Assembly: GCA_015490255.1 (NCBI GenBank)
Contig: WFYF01000134.1
Coordinates: 1-10,047 of the forward strand
DNA from: Caldifarciminota bacterium
Lineage (GTDB): Bacteria; Hydrothermota; Hydrothermia; S141-80
Direction of reading: 5' to 3'
Length of the DNA: 10,047 bases
Within the stretch, counting starts at the first letter, position 1; every line of letters begins with the position of its first letter. This document shows, piece by piece, positions 1-10,047 of this stretch. A model generated the notes under the pieces. It did not search any database, had not been told where the DNA came from, and worked only from the letters and a program-made list of their open reading frames with translations. Both the position numbers and the translations under genes were made by a program.

Positions 1-224
1 ATCCGGCGGCGGAGTCTCCGGACCTCCGCTTCAGCGTCGTTTTCCTTCGCAGGGGTTGCCGGTGGATGCACGCTGTATTGATCAATCCACCGCTTGATGG
101 TCATGGTGCCTCCGATGCCGTATTTCCGCCGGAGAGAGGACAGGGAAGCCCCCTCCTCATATTCCCGGACCACCCGGAGTTTGAAGGCTTCCGTGTACCG
201 TTTCCTCTTGCCTTTTCCAGACAT
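1..224 (-). CDS. IS3-type transposase OrfA, partial (C-terminus beyond left edge)
   Basis: The minus strand from an ATG at 224 reads open to the window edge (74 codons). The product is a basic N-terminus followed by a helix-turn-helix of the IS3/HTH_Tnp_1 kind: YTEAFKLRVVREYEEG (residues 10-25), then LRRKYGIGG and a T-x-K-R-W segment (residues 43-47). A charged stretch, EAEVRRLRRR, follows at the edge, where IS3 OrfA proteins start their leucine zipper. A GGAGGA Shine-Dalgarno (plus-strand 231-236) lies 7 nt before the start. OrfA binds the element ends and is normally extended by a -1 frameshift into OrfB, the DDE integrase. That part would lie left of the window, so whether the element is intact cannot be judged. 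It is unrelated to the nos genes and diverges from them. Confidence 0.75.
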   Translation of the reverse strand, partial: MSGKGKRKRYTEAFKLRVVREYEEGASLSSLRRKYGIGGTMTIKRWIDQYSVHPPATPAKENDAEAEVRRLRRR

Positions 225-289
225 TTCCACTCCTCCCCCGACTCCCCTATGATACACCCTCGAATGTAAACGTTTTTCCGGACGGGTCA
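1..289 (-). mobile_element. Insertion sequence end, IS3-like, partial
   Basis: The OrfA-like gene implies an insertion sequence entering from the left. Reading the minus strand upstream of OrfA, a candidate terminus starts 5'-TGACCCGTCCGG at plus 289. It begins with TG and is GC-rich, as many IS3-family ends are. The partner inverted repeat and the target duplication are outside the window, so this boundary is a guess. A short inverted repeat (CGGAC 279-283, GTCCG 294-298) straddles it. Confidence 0.35.
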
Positions 290-329
290 AAATGTCCGAA
301 GTCTCTCCCGATTTTCAGATTGTGGTGCC

Positions 330-595: not shown

Positions 596-1045
596 ATGAT
601 GCTTTCAAAGGAAACAGGTTATGTGGTGAGGCTCCTGGTCTATCTCCGGGAGCAGGATGCGCCGGTCCCGGTGAGGGAGGTGGCGCGGGTTCTGGGCATC
701 CCCCCGTCCTTTCTTGCCAAGCTGGTGCAGCGGGCAGCCCGTCGCGGCTGGGTGATCACCCGCAAAGGGCCCGGTGGCGGCATGATGCTCGGGGTGAACC
801 CTTCCGAACTCCGCCTGATGGAGATCGTGGAAACCCTTGAAGGGAGGGTCCTGGAGCAGTGCGTGCTCGGGCTGCCTGAATGCGGAGGGGAAAACCCCTG
901 TCCCCTCCACGATCAGTGGATGCCGGTGCGGGATGCCATGCTCGGGCTGTTTTCCCGCACCACGGTGAGCGACCTCAAGGGGGAGACTCTTCCCGGGATG
1001 AAGGAAAAGGATCAAACCTCTCACAAGAAGGAGGATTCACCATGA
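596..1045 (+). CDS. Rrf2-family transcriptional regulator with Fe-S cysteines (NsrR/IscR-like)
   Basis: The 149-residue protein has the Rrf2 winged helix: a helix-turn-helix around residues 25-50 (VREVARVLGIPPSFLAKLVQ) and the wing motif RKGPGGG (56-62). Three cysteines, C89, C96 and C102, sit where NsrR and IscR bind their [Fe-S] cluster, with spacing C-x6-C-x5-C; the C-terminal tail is charged. Family members sense NO, oxidative stress or cluster status and bind promoter DNA. Heading a nos cluster, an NO- or redox-responsive repressor or activator role is the likely reading. Two start codons are adjacent (596 and 599); no strong Shine-Dalgarno precedes them. The stop overlaps the cytochrome start by 4 nt (ATGA, 1042-1045), so the two genes are co-transcribed and the regulator may control itself. 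Its exact subfamily cannot be settled from sequence alone. Confidence 0.85.
   Translation: MMLSKETGYVVRLLVYLREQDAPVPVREVARVLGIPPSFLAKLVQRAARRGWVITRKGPGGGMMLGVNPSELRLMEIVETLEGRVLEQCVLGLPECGGENPCPLHDQWMPVRDAMLGLFSRTTVSDLKGETLPGMKEKDQTSHKKEDSP
1028..1034 (+). promoter_or_regulatory. Ribosome binding site of the first cytochrome
   Basis: AAGGAGG, 7 nt before ATG 1042, fixes the cytochrome start there. The same frame is open upstream to 880, but that part only shadows the regulator gene. Confidence 0.8.
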
Positions 1046-1476
1046 AGGGATGGATGACCATGGCGGTGGGCATTGCCCTGGCCGTTCCGGCGGCGCTGGG
1101 GGCGCAGGGAATCAATCCGGATGAGTTCTATCCGGGGAAAGGCGTGGGGCCCGTGGACACGGTGGTCCTTGCAGACACCCTGGATCCGGAGCTTGTGAAG
1201 AAAGGGGAGGAGATCTTCAAGCTCAAATGCACGGCCTGCCACCAGCTGGATCAGCGGGTGGTGGGACCGCCGCTTCGGGGGATCACCAAGCGTCGTCGTC
1301 CCGAGTGGATCATGAACATGATCCTGAACCCGACGGAGATGGTCCAGAAGGACGATTTGGCCAAAACCCTTCTCGGGATGTATTACGTTCCCATGACCAA
1401 CCAGAACGTCACCGAAGAGGACGCCCGGGCCCTTCTGGAGTATTTCCGGCAGGTGGACGCGGAAGAAAAGAAATGA
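1042..1476 (+). CDS. Secreted monohaem c-type cytochrome, probable NosZ electron donor
   Basis: The 144-residue protein starts with a Sec signal (MKGWMTMAVGIALAVPAALGAQG, cleavage probably after residue 20-22). It carries one haem c motif, C63-T-A-C66-H67, in a class I cytochrome fold with the expected VGPPLRGI loop (74-81). The likely distal ligand is M118 in YVPMTNQN, and a C-terminal helix follows (EEDARALLEYF). It would act in the periplasm, either soluble or held by an uncleaved signal. Small cytochromes next to clade II nosZ (NosC1/NosC2-type genes) are taken to pass electrons to the CuA site. The start at 1042 is chosen for its AAGGAGG and signal peptide. The gene overlaps the regulator by 4 nt and is separated from nosZ by a 204-nt leader. 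Partner assignment is inferred from position. Confidence 0.85.
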   Translation: MKGWMTMAVGIALAVPAALGAQGINPDEFYPGKGVGPVDTVVLADTLDPELVKKGEEIFKLKCTACHQLDQRVVGPPLRGITKRRRPEWIMNMILNPTEMVQKDDLAKTLLGMYYVPMTNQNVTEEDARALLEYFRQVDAEEKK

Positions 1477-1680: not shown

Positions 1681-3636
1681 ATGCGTGGATGGTCCTGGAA
1701 ATGGGGTATGCTGGTGGCGGTGGCCGCCCTCACCATGGTGGGGGCCACCAAGGTCCGGAAGCTCGCCCGGGATGCGGCGAAGAAGGTCTATGTGGCCCCC
1801 GGTGAGCACGACGAGTTCTATGCCTTCATGTCCGGGGGGTTCAACGGTCAGATCGGGGTCCACGGGCTGCCGTCCGGGCGACTGCTGAAGATCGTGCCGG
1901 TCTTTTCGGTGAACCCCGAGAACGGATACGGGTATTCCGAGGAGACCAAGCCCATGCTCATGACGTCCCAGGGGTTCGTGCCCTGGGATGACACTCACCA
2001 TCCGGAGCTTTCCCAGACCAACGGGGTTCCGGACGGACGCTGGCTTTTCATCAACGCCAACAACACGCCCCGCATCGCCCGGATTGACCTGGCCACCTTC
2101 CACACCGTGGACATCATTGAGATTCCCAACTCCGGTGGAAACCACCCCTCTCCCTTCATCACCCAGAACTCCGAATACGTGGTGGCCGGAACCCGCTTCT
2201 CCGTGCCCATCCCCCAGAAAGACATGCCCATCTCCAAATACAAGGGGAACTTCAAGGGCACCCTCACCTTCGTGAAGGTGGATCCCCAGACCGGCATGAT
2301 GGACATCGGCTTCCAGATCCTGGTGCCCGGCTTTGACTATGACCTGGCCCACTGCGGAAAGGGTCCGTCCCATGGCTGGTGCTTCTTCACCTCCTACAAC
2401 TCCGAGGAGGCCTATTCCCTCCTGGAGCGCCATGCTTCCCAGAAAGACAAGGACTATATCGCTGCGGTGAACTGGAAGCGGGCGGAGGCCTGCCTGAAGG
2501 AGGGCAAGGGCGAGAAGATGCGGGTGACCTATTACCACAACTACTGGGATGAAGAGAAGCAGATGGCGATTTCCGAAAAGAAGACCTCCGTCACCATCCT
2601 CCGTCCGGAGAAGTGTGAGGGCATGATCTATTACATCCCCACGCCCAAATCCCCCCACGGCGTGGACGTGGATCCCTCCGGCGAATACATCATCCCCGGC
2701 GGAAAACTCTCGGCCACCATCTCGGTGTTCTCCTTCAGCAAGATGATCAACGCCATCAAGAACAAGCAGTTTGCGGGTGAGGAATACGGCATTCCGGTGC
2801 TGAAATACGAGGCGGTGCTCCACAAAGAGGTGCCCAACCTCTGCCTTGGGCCGCTCCACAACGAGTTTGACACCCGGGGCAACGTCTACACCTCCTGCTT
2901 CATTTCCTCCGAAGTGGTGAAGTGGCGCTATGAGGACGGCAAGATTCTGGACCGGATCCCCGTGTATTACTCTATCGGCCACCTGATGATTCCCGGCGGC
3001 GACTCCCGCAAACCCTGGGACAAATATCTGGTTGCCCTCAACAAGATCACCAAAGACCGGTATCTCCCCACCGGACCGGAACTGGCCCAGTCCGCCCAGC
3101 TCATTGACATCACCGGCGACAAGATGGAGATGCTCCTGGACTTCCCCACCATGGGTGAGCCTCACTACGCCCAGGGGATCAAGGCGGATCTCGTGACCCA
3201 GCGTCAGGTGAAGATCTATCCGCTGGAGAAAAACCACCACCCCTATGCGGTCAAGTCCCAGGATGCTGTGAAGGTGGTGCGCAAGGGTCGCCGGGTGGAC
3301 GTCTATATGACCGCCATCCGGACCCACTTCGCGCCGGACAACATTGAAGGCATCCGGGTGGGCGACACGGTGTATTTCCATGTGACCAACCTGGAGCAGG
3401 ACTGGGATATCCCCCACGGATTCGCGGTGTACGGTGCCCAGAACGCCAACATCCTGATCATGCCCGGTCAGACCCTCACCCTGAAGTGGGTGCCCAAGGC
3501 TCCCGGTGTCTATCCCTTCTATTGCACAGACTTCTGCTCGGCCCTCCACCAGGAGATGCAGGGTTACGTCCGGGTGTCCCCGCGCAACGCGAAGACGAAG
3601 CTCTACTGGTACTGGGCCGGTCAGGAACAGAAATAA
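1681..3636 (+). CDS. nosZ: Nitrous oxide reductase, clade II, Sec-type
   Basis: The 651-residue protein reduces N2O to N2 in the periplasm. Seven histidines match the CuZ ligands: H106 and H107 (DDTHHPE), H155 (GGNHPSP), H326 (SPHGVDVD), H393 (GPLHNEFD), H434 (IGHLMIP) and H495 (GEPHYAQ). The C-terminal cupredoxin domain has the CuA set H579 (IPHGFAV), C615, C619, H623 and M626 in CTDFCSALHQEM. D617 sits where clade I has Trp; only the backbone carbonyl binds copper there. The N-terminus (MRGWSWKWGMLVAVAALTMV) is a Sec-type hydrophobic segment without twin arginines and without a clear cleavage site, so membrane anchoring is possible. Absence of a Tat signal, the DDTHHPE motif and the CTDFC motif together indicate clade II. 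There is no C-terminal haem domain as in Wolinella NosZ. A strong terminator follows directly. Confidence 0.97.
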   Translation: MRGWSWKWGMLVAVAALTMVGATKVRKLARDAAKKVYVAPGEHDEFYAFMSGGFNGQIGVHGLPSGRLLKIVPVFSVNPENGYGYSEETKPMLMTSQGFVPWDDTHHPELSQTNGVPDGRWLFINANNTPRIARIDLATFHTVDIIEIPNSGGNHPSPFITQNSEYVVAGTRFSVPIPQKDMPISKYKGNFKGTLTFVKVDPQTGMMDIGFQILVPGFDYDLAHCGKGPSHGWCFFTSYNSEEAYSLLERHASQKDKDYIAAVNWKRAEACLKEGKGEKMRVTYYHNYWDEEKQMAISEKKTSVTILRPEKCEGMIYYIPTPKSPHGVDVDPSGEYIIPGGKLSATISVFSFSKMINAIKNKQFAGEEYGIPVLKYEAVLHKEVPNLCLGPLHNEFDTRGNVYTSCFISSEVVKWRYEDGKILDRIPVYYSIGHLMIPGGDSRKPWDKYLVALNKITKDRYLPTGPELAQSAQLIDITGDKMEMLLDFPTMGEPHYAQGIKADLVTQRQVKIYPLEKNHHPYAVKSQDAVKVVRKGRRVDVYMTAIRTHFAPDNIEGIRVGDTVYFHVTNLEQDWDIPHGFAVYGAQNANILIMPGQTLTLKWVPKAPGVYPFYCTDFCSALHQEMQGYVRVSPRNAKTKLYWYWAGQEQK

Positions 3637-3714: not shown

Positions 3715-4278
3715 ATGAAATGGGTCAGGATCCTGATGGTTGTGGCGGCCATAGGGGTGGCGTCGGCCTACGTGTTCCCCCTGTGGACCTATAAGTTGGA
3801 CGCCCCCCAGTATCCTGAAGGTCTGGTGATGTACATCAAGGCCAACCGGGTTGCAGGGGACGTGGACAAGATAGACATCGTGAACCACTACATCGGCATG
3901 AAGCCCATTGAGAGCACGCAGTTCCTGGAGTTCAAAGTCTTCCCCATCGCCTTTGCCGTGTTCATCCTCTGGGCGCTCCTTGCAGCGTGGAGTGGCGCCT
4001 TCAAGCTCGTGGCCTCGTGGGTGCTGACCTATACCCTTTTCGCGCTGGTTTCCCTTGTGGATTTCTATAAATGGCTCTATCATTATGGGCATGATCTGGA
4101 TCCCTCTGCGGCCATCCGGATTGAGCCCTTCACACCGCCGCTTATTGGTCCGAAGGAACTACTGAACTTCTATGTGGAAGCCTGGCCGCATGCGGGAGGT
4201 CTGGGCCTGATCGTGGCGGCCGCCGCGGGGTGGCTGGCCCTGATCCTCCTGTGGCGGGCACGCAGGCAGGAGGCATGA
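3715..4278 (+). CDS. nosB: NosB-like integral membrane protein of clade II nos clusters
   Basis: The 187-residue protein has four predicted membrane segments: residues about 5-24, 74-94, 97-117 and 160-180. The first two are separated by a roughly 50-residue non-membrane loop, and the last is followed by a positively charged tail (RARRQEA). The loop carries NHYIGMKPIE (57-66), with His and Met that could bind a metal or haem; HYGH (123-126) follows the third segment. I recognise it by position and type: clade II nosZ is typically followed by a membrane protein called NosB, whose function is unknown. The sequence resembles, as I recall, uncharacterised nos-linked proteins with the same NHYIGM motif. 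Homology to Wolinella NosB itself was not tested, so the symbol is tentative. It sits 1 nt from nosL and is probably translated with it. Confidence 0.65.
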   Translation: MKWVRILMVVAAIGVASAYVFPLWTYKLDAPQYPEGLVMYIKANRVAGDVDKIDIVNHYIGMKPIESTQFLEFKVFPIAFAVFILWALLAAWSGAFKLVASWVLTYTLFALVSLVDFYKWLYHYGHDLDPSAAIRIEPFTPPLIGPKELLNFYVEAWPHAGGLGLIVAAAAGWLALILLWRARRQEA

Positions 4279-4279
4279 C

Positions 4280-4792
4280 ATGCGATGGGGATGGACCCTG
4301 CTGGGGATGCTCACGCTGGTGTTTCTGGGGTGCTCGGACAAACCGGAGGCTATCGCCTATGGGCGGGACAATTGCGCGTTCTGCAAAATGACCATCACGG
4401 ATCCCCGGTTTGCCGCCGAGATCGTCACGAAAAAGGGACGGATCTACAAGTTTGACGCCATTGAATGCATGATCGCCGCCACCCTGGATGGCACCGTGGA
4501 CCCGGCCGAGGTGAAGCGCTTCTGGGTGAAGGACTTTGAAACGCAGGAATGGGTGGATGCCGAGAAGGCCTTTTTCCTCCAGAGTCCGAAAATGCGCAGC
4601 CCCATGGGCGTGAACCTCGCCGCCTTTGCCTCGCGGGAGAACATGGAAGCCTTCAAGATGAAATACGACGGGCTGGAACTCACCTTTGAGGACCTGCCCA
4701 ACGTGATTCGCCAGAGCGGCCTGATGGAACGCGTGCGGCGGATGTCCGGACATATGGACATGAAAATGCACGGCGCGCCGGCCACTCCCTGA
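4280..4792 (+). CDS. nosL: NosL copper-binding lipoprotein, CuZ maturation chaperone
   Basis: The 170-residue protein has a lipoprotein signal ending in a lipobox (VFLGC, lipidated C18). It then has the NosL signature NCAFCKM (residues 31-37), in which C32, C35 and M37 form the CxxCxM Cu(I) site of the family. Further family features are the KGRIYKFDAIECM segment (52-64) and the FFLQSPKMRSPMGVNLAAF region (98-116). NosL is a membrane-tethered periplasmic Cu(I) chaperone that works with NosDFY to build the CuZ centre. The C-terminus ends in an unusual Met/His-rich tail (M155, H158, M159, M161, M163, H164), which may bind extra copper. The start at 4280 has a CAGGAGG 6 nt upstream and lies 1 nt after the NosB-like stop. 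Confidence 0.92.
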   Translation: MRWGWTLLGMLTLVFLGCSDKPEAIAYGRDNCAFCKMTITDPRFAAEIVTKKGRIYKFDAIECMIAATLDGTVDPAEVKRFWVKDFETQEWVDAEKAFFLQSPKMRSPMGVNLAAFASRENMEAFKMKYDGLELTFEDLPNVIRQSGLMERVRRMSGHMDMKMHGAPATP

Positions 4793-4798
4793 AGAACC

Positions 4799-6115
4799 AT
4801 GAATGCCCTTCTGCTTGTGCTGATGATGGTCGTCCCTCCGGAACAGGAGGTGGTGGAAATTGATCTGCTTCAAACGCCTTCCGCACCCGCCGCCCTCACC
4901 GTGTGTCCCACCTGCGAGATCTCGTCGCTGCGGGAAGCCCTGGAGCGGGCCCCGGTGGGGGCGACGGTGTATGTTCTTGGTGGGGTCTATCGGGAGAGCA
5001 CCCTGGTGGTGCGCAAATCTCTCACCCTGATCGGGGAGGACAACCCGGTCCTGGACGGGGAAGGAAAATACGAAATCCTGGTGGTGGACAGCGTGAACGG
5101 ATTTCGGATTGAGGGTTTCACCTTCCGGGGGTCGGGGATCAGCTTTATGGAGGATCAGGCGGCCCTCCGGATCCGGAACAGCAAAAACTGCATCATTCAG
5201 AACAACACGTTTCTGGATAACTTTTTTGCCATATATCTGGAATCCGCCAATACGTGTGTGGTTCGGAACAACACGATTCGGGGACCGGGCCGGACGGAGA
5301 ACTTTTCCGGCAATGCCATCCATGTCTGGAGCAGTTACAACATCCTCATTGAGGGGAACCATCTTTCCCGTCACCGGGACGGCATTTACCTGGAGTTCGT
5401 CCGGGACAGCAAGATCCTGAACAACATCAGCGAGGATCACGTGCGCTATGGCATGCATTTCATGTTCTCCGACGACAACGAGTTTCGGGGGAACGTGTTC
5501 CGGCGATGCGGGGCCGGGGTTGCGGTGATGTATTCCCGGAGGACCCGGCTGTCGGAAAACCGGTTTGAAGACAACTGGGGGGGTGCTTCTTATGGCCTTC
5601 TGCTCAAAGAGATTTACGATTCGGATGTGGAGCAGAACGTTTTCCGGCGAAACACCGTTGCCCTGTATGTGGAGGGTTCGGATCGCATGCTTGTGCGGGG
5701 CAACGTGTTTGAAAAAAACGGATGGGCGCTGCGGGTGCTGGGAAATTCCATGGGCATGAGCTTCATGTATAACAACGTCCTGGACAACACCTTTGAGGCT
5801 TCCACCAACGCTTCCCGGAACTACAACGCCTATCTTTACAACTTCTGGTCGGCCTATGTGGGCTATGATCTCAACCGGGACGGATATGGGGACGTGCCCC
5901 ACCGTCCCATGACCCTCTTCACCCAGCTGGTGGAGCAATATCCGGCGGCGGCGATTCTGCTCCACAGCCCGCTGGAATATCTGCTGCAATACGCCGAGCG
6001 GCTTCTTCCGGTGCTTTTGCCCTCGGCGATTGAAGATGATCGTCCGCTCATGGGGAGGATCGTATGGTCCAAGTCCGAAACGTCACCAAGCGATACGACA
6101 GCGTTGAAGCCCTGA
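4799..6115 (+). CDS. nosD: NosD periplasmic beta-helix protein for CuZ maturation
   Basis: The 438-residue protein has a short hydrophobic N-terminus (MNALLLVLMMVVPP) that should export it. From about residue 65 to 340 there is a run of NosD/CASH right-handed parallel beta-helix repeats with recurring N-N/G-N-x-[FIL] turns (QNNTFLDN, RNNTIRG, EGNHLSRH, LNNISED, RGNVFRR, RGNVFEKNG). The diagnostic NosD C-terminal block follows: NYNAYLYNFWSAYVGYDLNRDG and DVPHRP (341-370). NosD binds the NosFY ABC transporter outside the cytoplasmic membrane and receives copper from NosL to assemble CuZ. The gene starts 6 nt after nosL with only a weak GAAG ribosome site, suggesting translational coupling. Its last 52 nt overlap nosF in another frame. 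Confidence 0.93.
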   Translation: MNALLLVLMMVVPPEQEVVEIDLLQTPSAPAALTVCPTCEISSLREALERAPVGATVYVLGGVYRESTLVVRKSLTLIGEDNPVLDGEGKYEILVVDSVNGFRIEGFTFRGSGISFMEDQAALRIRNSKNCIIQNNTFLDNFFAIYLESANTCVVRNNTIRGPGRTENFSGNAIHVWSSYNILIEGNHLSRHRDGIYLEFVRDSKILNNISEDHVRYGMHFMFSDDNEFRGNVFRRCGAGVAVMYSRRTRLSENRFEDNWGGASYGLLLKEIYDSDVEQNVFRRNTVALYVEGSDRMLVRGNVFEKNGWALRVLGNSMGMSFMYNNVLDNTFEASTNASRNYNAYLYNFWSAYVGYDLNRDGYGDVPHRPMTLFTQLVEQYPAAAILLHSPLEYLLQYAERLLPVLLPSAIEDDRPLMGRIVWSKSETSPSDTTALKP

Positions 6116-6780
6116 AAGGGGTTTCGGTCCGGTTCCCCCGGGGGGTCACCGCCCTGGTGGGCCCCAACGCTTCCGGGAAAACCACGCTGCTCAAGTGCAT
6201 TCTGGGGCTGGTGCTGCCTCAGGAGGGGGAGATTCGGGTGATGGGAGAGCCCGTCACCGGACATCCGGAAATCCGCCGGCATATCGGCTATATGCCCCAG
6301 ATGGTCCAGTTTCCCGAGAGCCTCACGGTGGAGGAAATCCTGGACTGGGTTCAGGATATCCGTGGACAGCGTGTGAAGGTGGAACCCTGGATCCAGTGGC
6401 TCCAGCTGGAGGCCTTTCTGGACAAGCCCTTCGGGACGCTTTCGGGAGGAACCCGGCAGAAGGTGGGCATGGTGGTGGCTCTGATGTTTGACCCCCCCAT
6501 TCTCATCCTGGACGAACCCACGGCGGGTTTGGATCCCCTGAGCAACGCCCTCTTCAAGGAACGAATTCAGGAAGAGAAGGCCAGGGGGAAAACCATTGTT
6601 CTGACGTCCCATATCATCAGCGAGCTGGAAACTCTTGCAGACCGGGTGGTGTTCCTGCTTGAGGGACGGGTGGTGTTTGAAGGGTCCCGGGACGATCTGC
6701 TGGATCACACGGGAGAGACCTCTATGGAGCGTGCGGTGGCCCGGCTGATGGCCGGAGCAAACGGAGGGAACGGGGAATGA
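6064..6780 (+). CDS. nosF: NosF ABC transporter ATPase
   Basis: The 238-residue cytoplasmic ATPase shows every ABC motif: Walker A GPNASGKT (33-40), Q-loop Q79 (YMPQM), signature LSGGT (126-130), Walker B ILILDEP (146-152, with D150 and E151), the GLD D-loop (155-157), and switch H183 (LTSHI). The catalytic set is complete. It powers the NosFY transporter, which with NosD is needed to supply and assemble the copper-sulfide CuZ centre. The start at 6064 has GGGGAGG 5 nt upstream and lies inside the end of nosD (52-nt overlap); the stop overlaps the nosY start (ATGA, 6777-6780). The order D-F-Y is the usual one. Confidence 0.95.
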   Translation: MVQVRNVTKRYDSVEALKGVSVRFPRGVTALVGPNASGKTTLLKCILGLVLPQEGEIRVMGEPVTGHPEIRRHIGYMPQMVQFPESLTVEEILDWVQDIRGQRVKVEPWIQWLQLEAFLDKPFGTLSGGTRQKVGMVVALMFDPPILILDEPTAGLDPLSNALFKERIQEEKARGKTIVLTSHIISELETLADRVVFLLEGRVVFEGSRDDLLDHTGETSMERAVARLMAGANGGNGE

Positions 6781-7562
6781 CCTGGAAAATCATGCGGTGG
6801 GTGGCCCGGGACGTGCTCCGGAGCTCCTGGATCTTTTTCTATACCGCCTTCTTCCTCGCGCTGTCCATCGCCTTCTTCACCTTCTTTGAGGAACCCTCCC
6901 GGATCCTGCTTTCCCTTCTGAACCTGGTGCTCATGGTGGTCCCCCTGGTGAGCTTGATCTTCTCCCTCACGTATCTCTTCAACAACCGGAATTTCATCCT
7001 CCTCACCCTCACCCAGCCGGTGGCACGCCGATCGGTGTTCTGGGGATACTGGGGCGGGATCGGCGGACCCCTCGCTCTGAGCCTGCTCGTGGGCATGGGT
7101 CTGCCCATGGTGTTTTATCTGGCCGGCCATGTATCCTATGCGCCCCTGGGAGCCCTCATGGTGGCCGGGGGAATCCTGCTGAGCCAGATCTTCCTCGGGA
7201 TTGCCCTGTGGCTGGCCTTCGCCTTTGAGGACCGTCTCAAGGCCCTGGCGGTGGGGCTTCTGGTGTGGATGGCCCTGACCTTTTTCTATGACGGCCTCAT
7301 TCTCACGGTGATCATCCTGGCCTCGGCGTATCCGGTGGAGAAAATCGCGGTGGGACTTTCCTTTCTCAACCCGCTGGATCTGGTGCGCCTGCTGGTGCTG
7401 ATGCAGATGGACGTGGCGGCGCTCATGGGGTTCACCGCCGCGGTGTTCAAAAAGTTCCTGGGTTCGGCGTGGGGAACGGTGACCGCGGTGCTGGCGCTTA
7501 TGGTGTGGGTGGTCTTCCCCACCTTCCAGGCTGCGGTCCGGTTCCAGCGGAAGGATTTTTGA
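6777..7562 (+). CDS. nosY: NosY ABC transporter permease
   Basis: The 261-residue membrane protein has about six hydrophobic spans: residues 17-37, 45-68, 95-117, 122-149, 156-183 and 231-249. NosY-type motifs are the LTLTQPVARRSVFWGYW turn (76-92) after the second span and NPLDLVRLLVLMQMD (198-212), the segment that in NosY faces the ATPase and periplasmic partner. It pairs with NosF and NosD in CuZ maturation. It begins on the ATGA shared with nosF, with a GGAGGG 8 nt upstream, and is followed after 1 nt by the cytochrome lipoprotein gene, so all are one transcript. Confidence 0.93.
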   Translation: MTWKIMRWVARDVLRSSWIFFYTAFFLALSIAFFTFFEEPSRILLSLLNLVLMVVPLVSLIFSLTYLFNNRNFILLTLTQPVARRSVFWGYWGGIGGPLALSLLVGMGLPMVFYLAGHVSYAPLGALMVAGGILLSQIFLGIALWLAFAFEDRLKALAVGLLVWMALTFFYDGLILTVIILASAYPVEKIAVGLSFLNPLDLVRLLVLMQMDVAALMGFTAAVFKKFLGSAWGTVTAVLALMVWVVFPTFQAAVRFQRKDF

Positions 7563-7563
7563 C

Positions 7564-7965
7564 ATGGGCAGGGGTGTCGTTTTTCTCGCCCTGGCTTTTC
7601 TTGCGGGGTGCACGTCCCGTGAACCCCAGAAACCGCCTCCCCAGGAGGTGAAGCGGCTCTTTCGCACCATGGGGTGCACCAACTGTCACGACATCCGAAA
7701 CACCATCGGAGGGCCTTCTTTTGAAGCCATCGCCGCGCGCTATCCCGCCCACCCGGACACGATCCGGGCCCTGGTGAAACGGGTGAAGAAGGGGGTACGG
7801 GGCCGGTGGAAGGATGTCCCTCTGGAAGAGTGTCCGGACAAAACGGGGGAGGGGTTCAAAGATTACGAAATTCGCTGGATGATAGAGTGGATTCTGAGCC
7901 GGCAATGGCAGCCTTCCGGTCAGAAGAGTTCCCCCGGTCAAACGCACAAGGAGGAAAAACCATGA
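7564..7965 (+). CDS. Cytochrome c lipoprotein of the nos cluster, lacking the usual axial Met
   Basis: The 133-residue protein has a lipoprotein signal (VFLALAFLAGC, lipidated C16), a proline-rich linker (21-27), and one haem c site, C38-T-N-C41-H42, in a small class I cytochrome domain ending in a helix (YEIRWMIEWILSRQ, 101-114). It would be tethered to a periplasmic membrane face and could relay electrons to NosZ, like the second nos cytochrome of other clade II clusters. Oddly, the loop that in c551/c552-type proteins reads VPMPP is here VPLEECPD (85-92): Leu replaces the distal haem ligand, while C90 and H63 are nearby alternatives. Only M36 and M106 remain besides M1, both poorly placed. 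A Pro/Lys-rich tail follows. The start is 1 nt after nosY (AAGGA site at 7551-7555); the stop overlaps the receptor gene by 4 nt. Confidence 0.85.
   Translation: MGRGVVFLALAFLAGCTSREPQKPPPQEVKRLFRTMGCTNCHDIRNTIGGPSFEAIAARYPAHPDTIRALVKRVKKGVRGRWKDVPLEECPDKTGEGFKDYEIRWMIEWILSRQWQPSGQKSSPGQTHKEEKP
7948..7954 (+). promoter_or_regulatory. Ribosome binding site of the copper receptor gene
   Basis: AAGGAGG inside the end of the cytochrome gene, 7 nt before ATG 7962. It decides that start over an in-frame ATG at 7806, which would place 52 residues with no signal before it. Confidence 0.8.
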
Positions 7966-9860
7966 AGGCGCTGGCGGTGTGGATGGTGTTCGCCCAGGCC
8001 GGGCAGGCACCGCCACCGACACTGGAAGATTCTCTCAAAGCCGGCATTCTGACCATTCTGCCCACCATTGAGGTAACCGCGAAAGCCTCCCGGTGGACCT
8101 ATGATCTCCCCCCGGTTCGGGATGCGGTGCCCCGGGTCCTGGAGGCCAGCGGGGTGGATCTTGTGCGCCGGGGCCCGACCTTTGCCTCGGACCTCTTCGT
8201 GGACGGTTTTCGCCGTGGGGACATTGCCATGACCCTGGACGGTCAACATGTCCACAACGCCTGTCCCAACCGGATGGACGTCCCTGTGGTCAGGATCAAC
8301 CCGCTGGAGGTGGAAAAAGCCCGGCTGGTCCTCTCTTCATCTGATATCGCCGCAGGCCTGGGAGGTATGCTGGCTGTGGAGCGCCGTGTCCCCGGGGCTG
8401 GTTTTCTCTCCCGGGGATATTTCCAGGCGTTTGGCATGGCCGAAACGGGCCTGGACATGGGAGCGGCTTTGGAGGCACGCCACCAGGGCATCTACACCCG
8501 CTATACCCGGGCCAGGCCCTATGTGGACGCCGCAGGGAGAAGTGTCCAGGACCTGTACGGATACCGGCCTGAAGCCACTTCAGGTTATGAGATCGCTGAA
8601 GCCAGCTTCCGGGGAATGTGGCCGGAAAAAGCGCTGGCCTATGGACTGGGAGTGGCTTCCTACCGGGACGTGCTCTTCCCCTATCTCCTCATGGATGAAC
8701 GGGATAACCTGGGCTGGGAGGCGTTTCTGGAAGCGCGAGGACATCGCCTTTATGCCAGCGGGTTCCGGCATCTCATGGACAACGGCCTGCGAACCGTCTC
8801 CGACAGAATGTTCATGGAAACGGATGCCCGGACCTGGGTGGCCGGGCTCACGGACCGGAAAACCTATGACATCTCCGTCCGCCGGTGGATTGCGGATAAT
8901 ACGGTGCGGATGAGCATGAACAACATGCCCATGACCACCGAGCAGCGGATGCTGGACATCCTGCAGATTCGGGGAACCGTGGGCCGTGCGTTTCGCTGGA
9001 AAGGTCTCCAGTTTCAGGGCCGTGCGGGCCTGGCGTATGTGGAGCGGGCGGACAACCGCCGGGATCTCCTGGATCTTGTGACCCCGGAGGCCCGGATCTC
9101 CCGGGTTTTCCCCCTCCTGGCCCTCAACACCACCGCCCGCTGGAGGGATGTGCGGTTCTTCCTGGAGGGGGCCACCGAGGCTCCGGAGCCGGAAGCGCTG
9201 TATATAGAACTCAAACGGGGGAAGATGAACAACCGGCAGCAGCCTTACTGGGTGGGGAACCCTGACCTGCGTCCCGCTTTCAAGGGGGCGTTCCGGGCTC
9301 AGATCCCTGTGCAGATTGCTCCGTTCGCCCTTTCCCTGGAGACCCACGCCTCCTATGTGGTGAACTATGTGGAGCCAGGCCGGACGGCGGCCGACAGCAT
9401 CCCCATCCAGACCTACCGGAACGTGGACGCCTTCATGACCGGGTTCCGGCTCCTGGGACAGTTCCGGTTCCTTCATCTGGAAAGCCATTACACCTGGGCG
9501 GAAAACCTCACGGACCGGAGGCCCCTTTCGGAAATTCCACCCCTTCACCTGCGGGTGGAGGCCCGTCCTCGCTGGGAGATGGGATCCTGGGCCCTGACGC
9601 CCCGACTGGCCGTGGTGTATGAGGCCCGCCAGGATCGCGTGAACCCGGAACTGAACGAAACACCCACCCCGGCATGGTATCGGGTGGATGCCGGGATCAC
9701 GGCCGTGTGGAAAGCCCTGCGTCTGGAGGTGGGGGTGGAAAATCTGACCAACGAACTGTATTACCGGCACCTTTCCTATCTGCGCAACCCCTTCGCCGCG
9801 GGGGTGAAGGTGTGGGAGCCGGGGCGGCGGATCTCCGTGACGGTATGGTCCGACCTCTGA
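7962..9860 (+). CDS. nosA: TonB-dependent outer-membrane copper receptor, OprC/NosA-like
   Basis: The 632-residue protein has a short signal (MKALAVWMVFAQAGQA), a TonB-box-like LPTIEVTAK (33-41), a plug domain (about 45-150, with IAMTLDGQHVHNACPNRMD) and an outer-membrane beta-barrel to the end, including the late-barrel segment EVGVENLTNELYYRHLSYLRNPF. C101 and M105 (CxxxM) and H270 and M272 (HLMDN) reproduce, in the right order, the CxxxM and HxM copper ligands known for OprC of Pseudomonas aeruginosa. M-rich stretches (MFMETDARTW at 283-292, and M317/M319/M322/M324) add possible sites. It would import copper for NosZ, as proposed for NosA of P. stutzeri. It is shorter than OprC (about 720). 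The start overlaps the cytochrome stop (ATGA), so it is the last gene of the operon. Functional assignment rests on the motifs and context. Confidence 0.85.
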   Translation: MKALAVWMVFAQAGQAPPPTLEDSLKAGILTILPTIEVTAKASRWTYDLPPVRDAVPRVLEASGVDLVRRGPTFASDLFVDGFRRGDIAMTLDGQHVHNACPNRMDVPVVRINPLEVEKARLVLSSSDIAAGLGGMLAVERRVPGAGFLSRGYFQAFGMAETGLDMGAALEARHQGIYTRYTRARPYVDAAGRSVQDLYGYRPEATSGYEIAEASFRGMWPEKALAYGLGVASYRDVLFPYLLMDERDNLGWEAFLEARGHRLYASGFRHLMDNGLRTVSDRMFMETDARTWVAGLTDRKTYDISVRRWIADNTVRMSMNNMPMTTEQRMLDILQIRGTVGRAFRWKGLQFQGRAGLAYVERADNRRDLLDLVTPEARISRVFPLLALNTTARWRDVRFFLEGATEAPEPEALYIELKRGKMNNRQQPYWVGNPDLRPAFKGAFRAQIPVQIAPFALSLETHASYVVNYVEPGRTAADSIPIQTYRNVDAFMTGFRLLGQFRFLHLESHYTWAENLTDRRPLSEIPPLHLRVEARPRWEMGSWALTPRLAVVYEARQDRVNPELNETPTPAWYRVDAGITAVWKALRLEVGVENLTNELYYRHLSYLRNPFAAGVKVWEPGRRISVTVWSDL

Positions 9861-9869
9861 AGGTCGGAC
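9848..9869 (+). repeat. Perfect inverted repeat around the receptor stop codon
   Basis: GTCCGACCT (9848-9856) and AGGTCGGAC (9861-9869) are exact reverse complements. The 4-nt loop CTGA contains the TGA stop. No T-run follows; it may stabilise the 3' end or act with the terminator 18 nt further on. Confidence 0.6.
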
Positions 9870-9886
9870 ACGGACGACAGGACATC

Positions 9887-9913
9887 ACGGGGGCGGCAAC
9901 GCCCCCGTTTTTT
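9887..9913 (+). terminator. Intrinsic terminator of the nos cluster
   Basis: ACGGGGGC (9887-9894) pairs with GCCCCCGT (9901-9908) around a GGCAAC loop, with six T residues (9908-9913). It lies 26 nt after the receptor stop and closes the plus-strand operon. On the minus strand the hairpin falls just behind the converging gene's stop, but there it lacks a T-run. Confidence 0.85.
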
Positions 9914-10047
9914 ATCGGATGCGCACGATTTTGAGCGCACGAGATGCCCGATTCCCCCGGACAAACATCACGCCCCGGCCGGAAAACGCGAGAAACACAC
10001 CTTCCCGGCAGGGTTTTCGGGCAAGAATCCTCCCGGCTGCGTCCAGG
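9912..10047 (-). CDS. Partial protein with T9SS/Por-type C-terminal sorting tail
   Basis: The minus strand is open from the right edge to a TAA at 9914-9912, giving the last 44 residues of a protein whose start lies outside the window. They begin LDAAGRILAR and end with GRGVMFVRGNRASR and LKIVRIR. This pattern (GR near the start, GVxFVR, then a basic stretch and K-I-V-R at the very end) resembles the type A C-terminal domain that sends proteins through the type IX secretion system of the FCB group. If so, the full protein is secreted or attached to the cell surface. It converges on the nos operon and is not part of it. The fragment is short, so the call is tentative. Confidence 0.5.
   Translation of the reverse strand, partial: LDAAGRILARKPCREGVFLAFSGRGVMFVRGNRASRALKIVRIR

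Follow-up and report, generated by a model that had tools for sequence, protein, structure and literature searches.

The known enzymatic sink for the greenhouse gas N2O is its reductase NosZ, an enzyme that needs much copper, with six coppers per subunit in CuA and CuZ. The closest described systems to the receptor considered here are OprC of Pseudomonas aeruginosa (PDB 6fok and others), whose copper ligands are C143, M147, H323 and M325 (accessible part of PMC8610252), and NosA of P. stutzeri. Reports on the part of nosA in copper supply to NosZ conflict, and a nosA knockout is reported to have left both the activity and the copper content of NosZ unchanged (accessible part of PMC8610252); a review, in its accessible portion, allows that NosA might serve in general copper import (PMC7558416). 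Here we analyse a window (that is, the whole stretch of 10,047 nucleotides studied, from contig WFYF01000134.1 of assembly GCA_015490255.1, Caldifarciminota bacterium) in which the gene for a compact OprC-type receptor follows a clade II nos cluster. We think it likely that this gene encodes an outer-membrane TonB-dependent copper receptor that works like OprC/NosA and is made with NosZ and its maturation proteins in order to fill NosZ.

The genes of the window run in the order Rrf2, cytochrome c, clade II NosZ, NosB-like, NosL, NosD, NosF, NosY, cytochrome c and receptor (Table 1). With NosZ above the TIGR04246 cut-off and NosD, NosL, NosF and NosY beside it (NosF and NosY being assigned from ABC families and gene place alone), this is a clade II (Sec) nos operon, as the first-pass annotation of this DNA had read it; against TIGR04244, the same NosZ reaches 368 bits, under the cut-off of 625. 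The annotation had also suspected a non-proteobacterial genome, in agreement with a second locus bearing the same cluster (L001, titled candidate division WOR-3, NCBI phylum Caldifarciminota), and the 4-nt overlap that it had described between receptor gene and nos cluster is exact, with the receptor ATG at 7962-7964 lying over the cytochrome c stop TGA at 7963-7965. Because of this ATGA overlap, the terminator-like hairpin 3' of the receptor stop codon (nine pairs, GC-rich, followed by a T run) and the finding of no sigma-70-like promoter in 7400-10047 (0 against 0.3, in a scan that covers sigma-70-like sites alone), the receptor is probably the final gene of a co-transcribed nos operon. Terminator-like sites in the same region number three against 2.2 in shuffles, a count that by itself is no evidence.

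Table 1 Coordinates of the features of the window and, with locus prefix, of genes beside receptors elsewhere
Feature	Position	Strand	Basis or remark
Rrf2 family regulator	596..1045	+	stop (1045) overlaps cytochrome c start (1042)
Cytochrome c	1042..1476	+	PF00034
Clade II NosZ (Sec type)	1681..3636	+	TIGR04246, 945 bits, cut-off 625
Membrane protein in nos cluster, presumably NosB-like	3715..4278	+	without Pfam match
NosL copper chaperone	4280..4792	+	PF05573
NosD	4799..6115	+	TIGR04247, 397 bits, cut-off 300
NosF-like ABC ATPase	6064..6780	+	PF00005
NosY-like ABC permease	6777..7562	+	PF12679
Mono-heme cytochrome c with lipoprotein-like signal, which we take to be NosC2-like (NosC)	7564..7965	+	ORF reading and Pfam
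ATGA shared by receptor start and cytochrome c stop	7962..7965	+	sequence
Compact OprC-type TonB-dependent receptor, 632 aa	7962..9860	+	OprC sole PDB hit for the sequence searched singly; best NCBIfam family TIGR01778, below cut-off
CxxxM pair C101/M105 in ACPNRMD (plug by homology)	8262..8276	+	aligned with OprC C143/M147; codons start at 8262 and 8274
M244	8691..8693	+	via L073 corresponds to OprC M286 (Ag2 site, methionine track)
HxM pair H270/M272 in RHLMDN	8769..8777	+	aligned with OprC H323/M325; codons start at 8769 and 8775, the latter ending at 8777
M283 and M285	8808..8816	+	aligned with OprC methionine-track M341, M343
Terminator-like hairpin and T run directly after receptor	9887..9913	+	-20.6 kcal/mol, z -3.95
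NosL-like gene beside receptor	L116:12820-13287
YtkA-domain genes beside receptor	L120:7579-8364, L126:6071-6934, L118:1871-2650
Upstream ORF examples	L008:9366-9743, L017:9340-9729, L024:9347-9727, L113:12220-12597, L116:10103-10468

Two further features of the window may be recorded. The Rrf2 regulator carries C-x6-C-x5-C, which we take to be as in iron-sulfur Rrf2 proteins such as NsrR, and Rrf2-like genes also lie near nosZ in four other loci (L108, L117, L120 and L126). The contig edge holds the start of a transposase-like ORF (window 3-290, minus strand), presumably of the IS3 OrfA kind.

Searched as a single sequence against all PDB sequences, the receptor matched six distinct chains with E no higher than 0.1, every one of them OprC (best E 3.3e-8), and a profile of 120 homologues likewise placed OprC at the top (8.5e-30), followed by PhuR with a match in the barrel only (1.8e-7). 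The best NCBIfam family is TIGR01778 (TonB-copper), at 58.3 bits against a curated cut-off of 472. On the basis of this score against an equivalog cut-off, the protein is by site a compact OprC-type variant and not a TIGR01778 member; among nine other receptors scanned, only that of L073 passes (497 bits), to which the window receptor is 23% identical (alignment A3). The ZnuD family NF038289 is not among the four NCBIfam families that the protein matches at E 0.001. Against PF00593 the receptor scores 25.6 bits, the gathering score being 27, and it is absent from the PF00593 matches of its own genome; a precomputed table lists PF00593 for the protein. As first noticed from the sequence, the N-terminus is short (100 residues before the Cys versus 142) and the whole protein smaller than OprC (632 aa versus a 723-residue chain). 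Partners for TonB-dependent transport are present in the genome, with four matches to ExbD and one to TonB_C.

In the family-profile alignment, ACPNRMD and HLMDN fall on the same OprC motifs, and C101, M105, H270 and M272 are in register with C143, M147, H323 and M325 (OprC residue numbers being counted along the printed alignment), which bears out the earlier assignment of NACPNRMD and RHLMDN to the CxxxM and HxM pairs of OprC. The receptor, whose sole cysteine is C101, carries both pairs by which OprC-type copper receptors are recognized by site, although at the level of single segments the alignment is weak (E 0.18 for the HxM domain, profile against PDB; 0.37 for CxxxM, single sequence against PDB). 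Given its homology to OprC, which is the nearest characterized relative in place of the siderophore receptor that the first-pass annotation had named as the adverse outcome, an OprC-type copper site in the window receptor is supported.

Conservation points the same way. A protein search that scored 7999 candidates gave at least 352 matches, and the four ligands are invariant in 120 of 120 homologues among the matches listed (120 of 352), part of the CxxxM conservation being built in by a search that gathers proteins with short exact words in common. A pattern scan of genome contigs found all four residues at aligned places in 78 of 80 loci, with CxxxM partly preselected, as ACPNRMD was one of the two patterns, and HxM in neither pattern; the remaining two loci (L031 and L057) are cut at contig ends before the plug and keep HxM. 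Eight of 43 loci tried were missed by the motif expression (L050, L053, L054, L055, L062, L063, L069 and L079) and, once aligned, all eight have the four residues. Both pairs also occur in 13 of 13 receptors found by HMM search in the window's phylum, that of G034 lying in two parts on separate contigs, each with one of the pairs. In alignment A3, which consists of 35 diverse receptors, most rows were chosen by the two motifs and ligand invariance is no test, the informative positions there being M244 and M285. As a control, CxxxMD is absent from eight of eight lower-scoring TonB receptors checked (243-274 bits, from the 197-genome class described below), and the window genome's two further PF00593 receptors, one of them read without its start, showed neither CxxxM nor HxM. 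A chance motif was rejected on the invariance among the listed homologues, the 78 loci and the eight controls.

For the methionine track of OprC, the picture is mixed: M244 aligns in A3 with a Met of L073 that falls on OprC M286, M283 and M285 match M341 and M343, and M339 and M348 are unmatched. Met is found at M244 in 120/120 rows of A1 (the listed homologues) and 35/35 of A3, at M285 in 120/120 and 25/35, and at M283 in 63/120 and 16/35. We suggest that copper at the outer face would pass along a short relay of M244, M283 and M285, be gripped by C101 and M105 from the plug and by H270 and M272 from the barrel, and then enter the periplasm once TonB pulls on the plug. The convergence of the four ligands on one copper is a prediction from homology to OprC, as are probably the details of fold and site geometry. 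With the receptor made from the nos operon together with NosZ and the NosL, NosD, NosF and NosY maturation proteins, periplasmic copper supply would rise when NosZ must be filled.

The distribution of the two genes in the window's phylum agrees with such a role. Among 147 genomes searched, the receptor was found in 13 by HMM search (G062, with a barrel-end match alone at E 3e-15, being left out) and NosZ in 13, two of them as fragments below the cut-off (G038 and G039), with G011, G036 and G117 left out of the count, as their sole TIGR04246 match spans about the last 100 positions. Twelve genomes have both, that is, 12 of 13 receptor genomes and 12 of 13 NosZ genomes, leaving one receptor without NosZ (G036, 57% complete) and one NosZ without receptor (G033). 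The receptor adjoins nos only in the window's own family (the window and G044); in 10 of the 12 genomes with both, the genes lie on different contigs. Because G033 (L112) has the nos order of the window and a similar last cytochrome c (75 bits) with no receptor match, the receptor gene may be an addition to a nos cluster that already existed.

The main rival is general copper import on behalf of every periplasmic cuproenzyme, heme-copper oxidases foremost, with the receptor gene placed in the nos operon only through shared low-oxygen expression. In its favour, PF00115 is matched in 12 of the phylum's 13 receptor genomes; among the 12 that have receptor and NosZ, G041 (85% complete) alone is without such a match. 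The window genome itself has two PF00115 matches, one with a Sco-like gene beside it; we take these to be of cbb3-type and A-type look, the Sco-like gene standing beside the A-type one, and the single matches of G044 and G054 presumably represent cbb3-type oxidases, judging from motifs. Against it, six of the 18 phylum genomes with PF00115 are without the receptor, compared with one of 13 NosZ genomes, counts that are not independent of phylogeny.

Beyond the phylum, 27 of 50 receptor genomes searched (for 50 of the 80 loci) have NosZ at E 1e-20, 23 of them above the cut-off, and the 23 of 50 without NosZ rule it out as the sole client of the whole receptor family and add to the case for a general importer, as does the accessible text of the review that calls NosA possibly general (PMC7558416). 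A nos cluster surrounds the receptor in two of the 80 named loci of the genome-contig scan, many of which are short: L001, with the gene order of the window, and L017, with the receptor between NosF and NosY. These loci were searched by tblastn at E 1e-4 with the window nos proteins, NosF matches being shown from 120 bits upwards, a search that diverged nos genes may escape.

A second class was sampled with 197 genomes around G163 (genome of L024, titled Candidatus Kapaibacterium). There, the A3 profile gave 36 matches of at least 350 bits, to which are added G208, read as two pieces in a single frame, and two matches of lower score, one in G375 (300 bits) and an additional one in G250 (284 bits). 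Every one of these receptors carries both pairs at the right spacing. Receptors of the OprC type occur in 37 of the 197 genomes, and NosZ accompanies them in 27 of the 37 versus 49 of the 160 others (Fisher 3.4e-6, uncorrected for ancestry). In 14 of the 27 co-occurring genomes, the receptor is within 15 kb of nosZ, at distances of 1.9-7.4 kb, where random placement expects 0.25, a figure that likewise ignores shared ancestry. Compact receptors taken alone are found in 12 genomes, six with NosZ and two linked, hardly above the class rate of 76/197. In G241, the receptor adjoins a NosY-like fragment at a contig end. A gammaproteobacterial sample of 229 genomes around G193 (genome of L073, titled Gammaproteobacteria) has a TIGR04244 match in 40, a receptor match in 57 and both in 15, with the ligand pairs confirmed in 12 of the 15; in none of the 15 was the receptor within 15 kb of nosZ (tables compared by eye; three receptor contigs are under 10 kb). 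As five to six first-look candidates were scored per genome, the counts of these whole-genome receptor searches are lower bounds.

In a quick tree of 95 receptors, supported by SH-aLRT only and with odd letter make-up in 42 rows, the linkage label (18 rows) needs seven changes, gains or losses. The nos-linked rows stand in five separate places: the window with L001; L017 with L113 and L114; L115, L116, L121-L125 and L127; L149; and L117, L118, L120 and L126. An SH-aLRT of 100 supports both the 37-row clade to which the window receptor belongs and a 16-row clade that includes the 14 gammaproteobacterial receptors. This recurrence, itself not independent of phylogeny, speaks against a general importer and suggests a genetic coupling of copper import to N2O breakdown in several lineages. 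Of the relatives beside clade II nosZ that the first-pass annotation had suggested looking for across phyla, linked receptors did turn up in several lineages, but only in two of the 80 scanned loci within a nos cluster; its broader idea, that copper import is tied to N2O reduction, is supported by operon position, co-occurrence with NosZ and linkage elsewhere. NosZ and oxidases are only partly separable as clients. We consider general supply that also feeds oxidases rather unlikely and prefer delivery mainly to NosZ. Because the receptor is tied to nosZ by position in them, several non-proteobacterial lineages offer natural test cases for whether receptors of the OprC/NosA kind feed NosZ. Among the open-licence papers listed, none describes a TonB receptor placed within clade II nos genes, which is no proof of absence, nor do the accessible parts of PMC7477175, PMC5219744 and PMC7558416.

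The neighbours of linked receptors hint at how copper might travel further. In the second class, the receptor of L120 and L126 lies in the interval from NosL to NosD, preceded by a YtkA-domain gene; such a gene also adjoins the receptor of L118, where the contig stops behind the receptor. In L116, L121, L122 and L124, the receptor comes after NosY and is itself followed by a NosL-like gene (Pfam covering L116 alone). Such NosL-like and YtkA neighbours show what a copper route from the outer membrane to NosZ could look like. In L113 (8938-11009) and L114 (8919-11045), NosF and the receptor are separated by a DUF1858/DUF2249 gene and by one for a membrane protein with weak likeness to COX1, a reading based on Pfam for L113 and on like position and size for L114. 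Tandem NosZ-like genes occur in G148, the genome of L008 (C37 40942-45047; 468 and 666 bits with TIGR04246).

Upstream of 36 of 108 receptors (duplicates removed, more than 450 bases upstream) stands an ORF that combines C-x(6-10)-C-x(1-3)-C with a PP among its final 16 residues, mostly 120-136 residues long and in most cases with a hydrophobic start; the pattern matches two of 510 other ORFs of like size, one of which (L032) itself precedes a receptor. Pfam, run on 25 upstream proteins (20 of the Cys-cluster/PP kind), matched two cytochromes c and gave one weak HNH hit (E 0.0057), and none of the 25 matched DUF2946. Before five receptors (L079, L177, L179, L181 and L188), the upstream ORF ends in RAPP, the C-terminal motif of CruR (accessible part of PMC9426467), of whose kind CutF is a second upstream ORF (accessible part of PMC9973294). 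By sequence, these ORFs look like a candidate family of copper-sensing upstream ORFs of the CruR/CutF type, and they speak for copper control of the receptors. None of the Cys-cluster/PP kind was found before the window receptor, whose start couples to the cytochrome c gene. In L007, a locus named as Chlorobiota that has no nos cluster, the compact receptor is preceded by an ORF (9303-9734) bearing a single CxxCH. We are evenly divided on a wider reading, in which OprC-type import would be a recruited module of clade II N2O respiration, with receptors from five places in the tree entering different nos positions, several with a second NosL-like or YtkA gene, and in part of the Bacteroidota-type genomes under undescribed CruR/CutF-like, non-DUF2946 ORFs.

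Two other readings concern the ligand. Import of a copper complex (a chalkophore or small copper chelate, as for CrtA or MbnT) instead of naked ions has a precedent in CrtA of Bordetella, a copper receptor that takes chelated copper (accessible part of PMC12914433), and is improbable here: CrtA falls in a sequence cluster apart from OprC (same source), and all four residues that hold the metal directly in OprC, a binder of ionic copper, are retained in the window protein (accessible part of PMC8610252). A merely fortuitous motif in a receptor for iron, heme or another siderophore, for which the barrel match to PhuR and weak NCBIfam matches to siderophore and hemin receptor families might be cited, is hardly credible and was rejected on scores and invariant ligands, as these matches are weaker than that to the copper family and confined to the barrel end; CxxxMD is missing from the eight control receptors checked, and neither pair was seen in the two other PF00593 receptors of the genome.

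We return to a copper receptor that would serve NosZ and compare it with known systems. From the zinc receptor ZnuD we take it to differ in metal ligands. Both are metal-ion TonB receptors, and the metal site of ZnuD lies near that of OprC (accessible part of PMC8610252). With CrtA (BfrG) of Bordetella and Pseudomonas, it would share TonB-dependent copper import tied to a copper-using respiratory enzyme, but CrtA takes chelated Cu(II) for heme-copper oxidases, has another binding site and belongs to another sequence cluster (accessible part of PMC12914433). OprC and NosA are closer, with TonB-receptor homology across plug and barrel and four copper ligands in common, in ACPNRMD and HxMDN; three methionine-track positions of OprC are kept, but not M339 and M348, and copper supply for NosZ had already been proposed for NosA (accessible parts of PMC8610252 and PMC7558416). 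What sets the window receptor apart from OprC and NosA is its smaller size, shorter N-terminus and score far below the TIGR01778 cut-off, its place in a clade of its own away from the gammaproteobacterial receptors, and the position of its gene, within the clade II nos operon of a non-proteobacterium.
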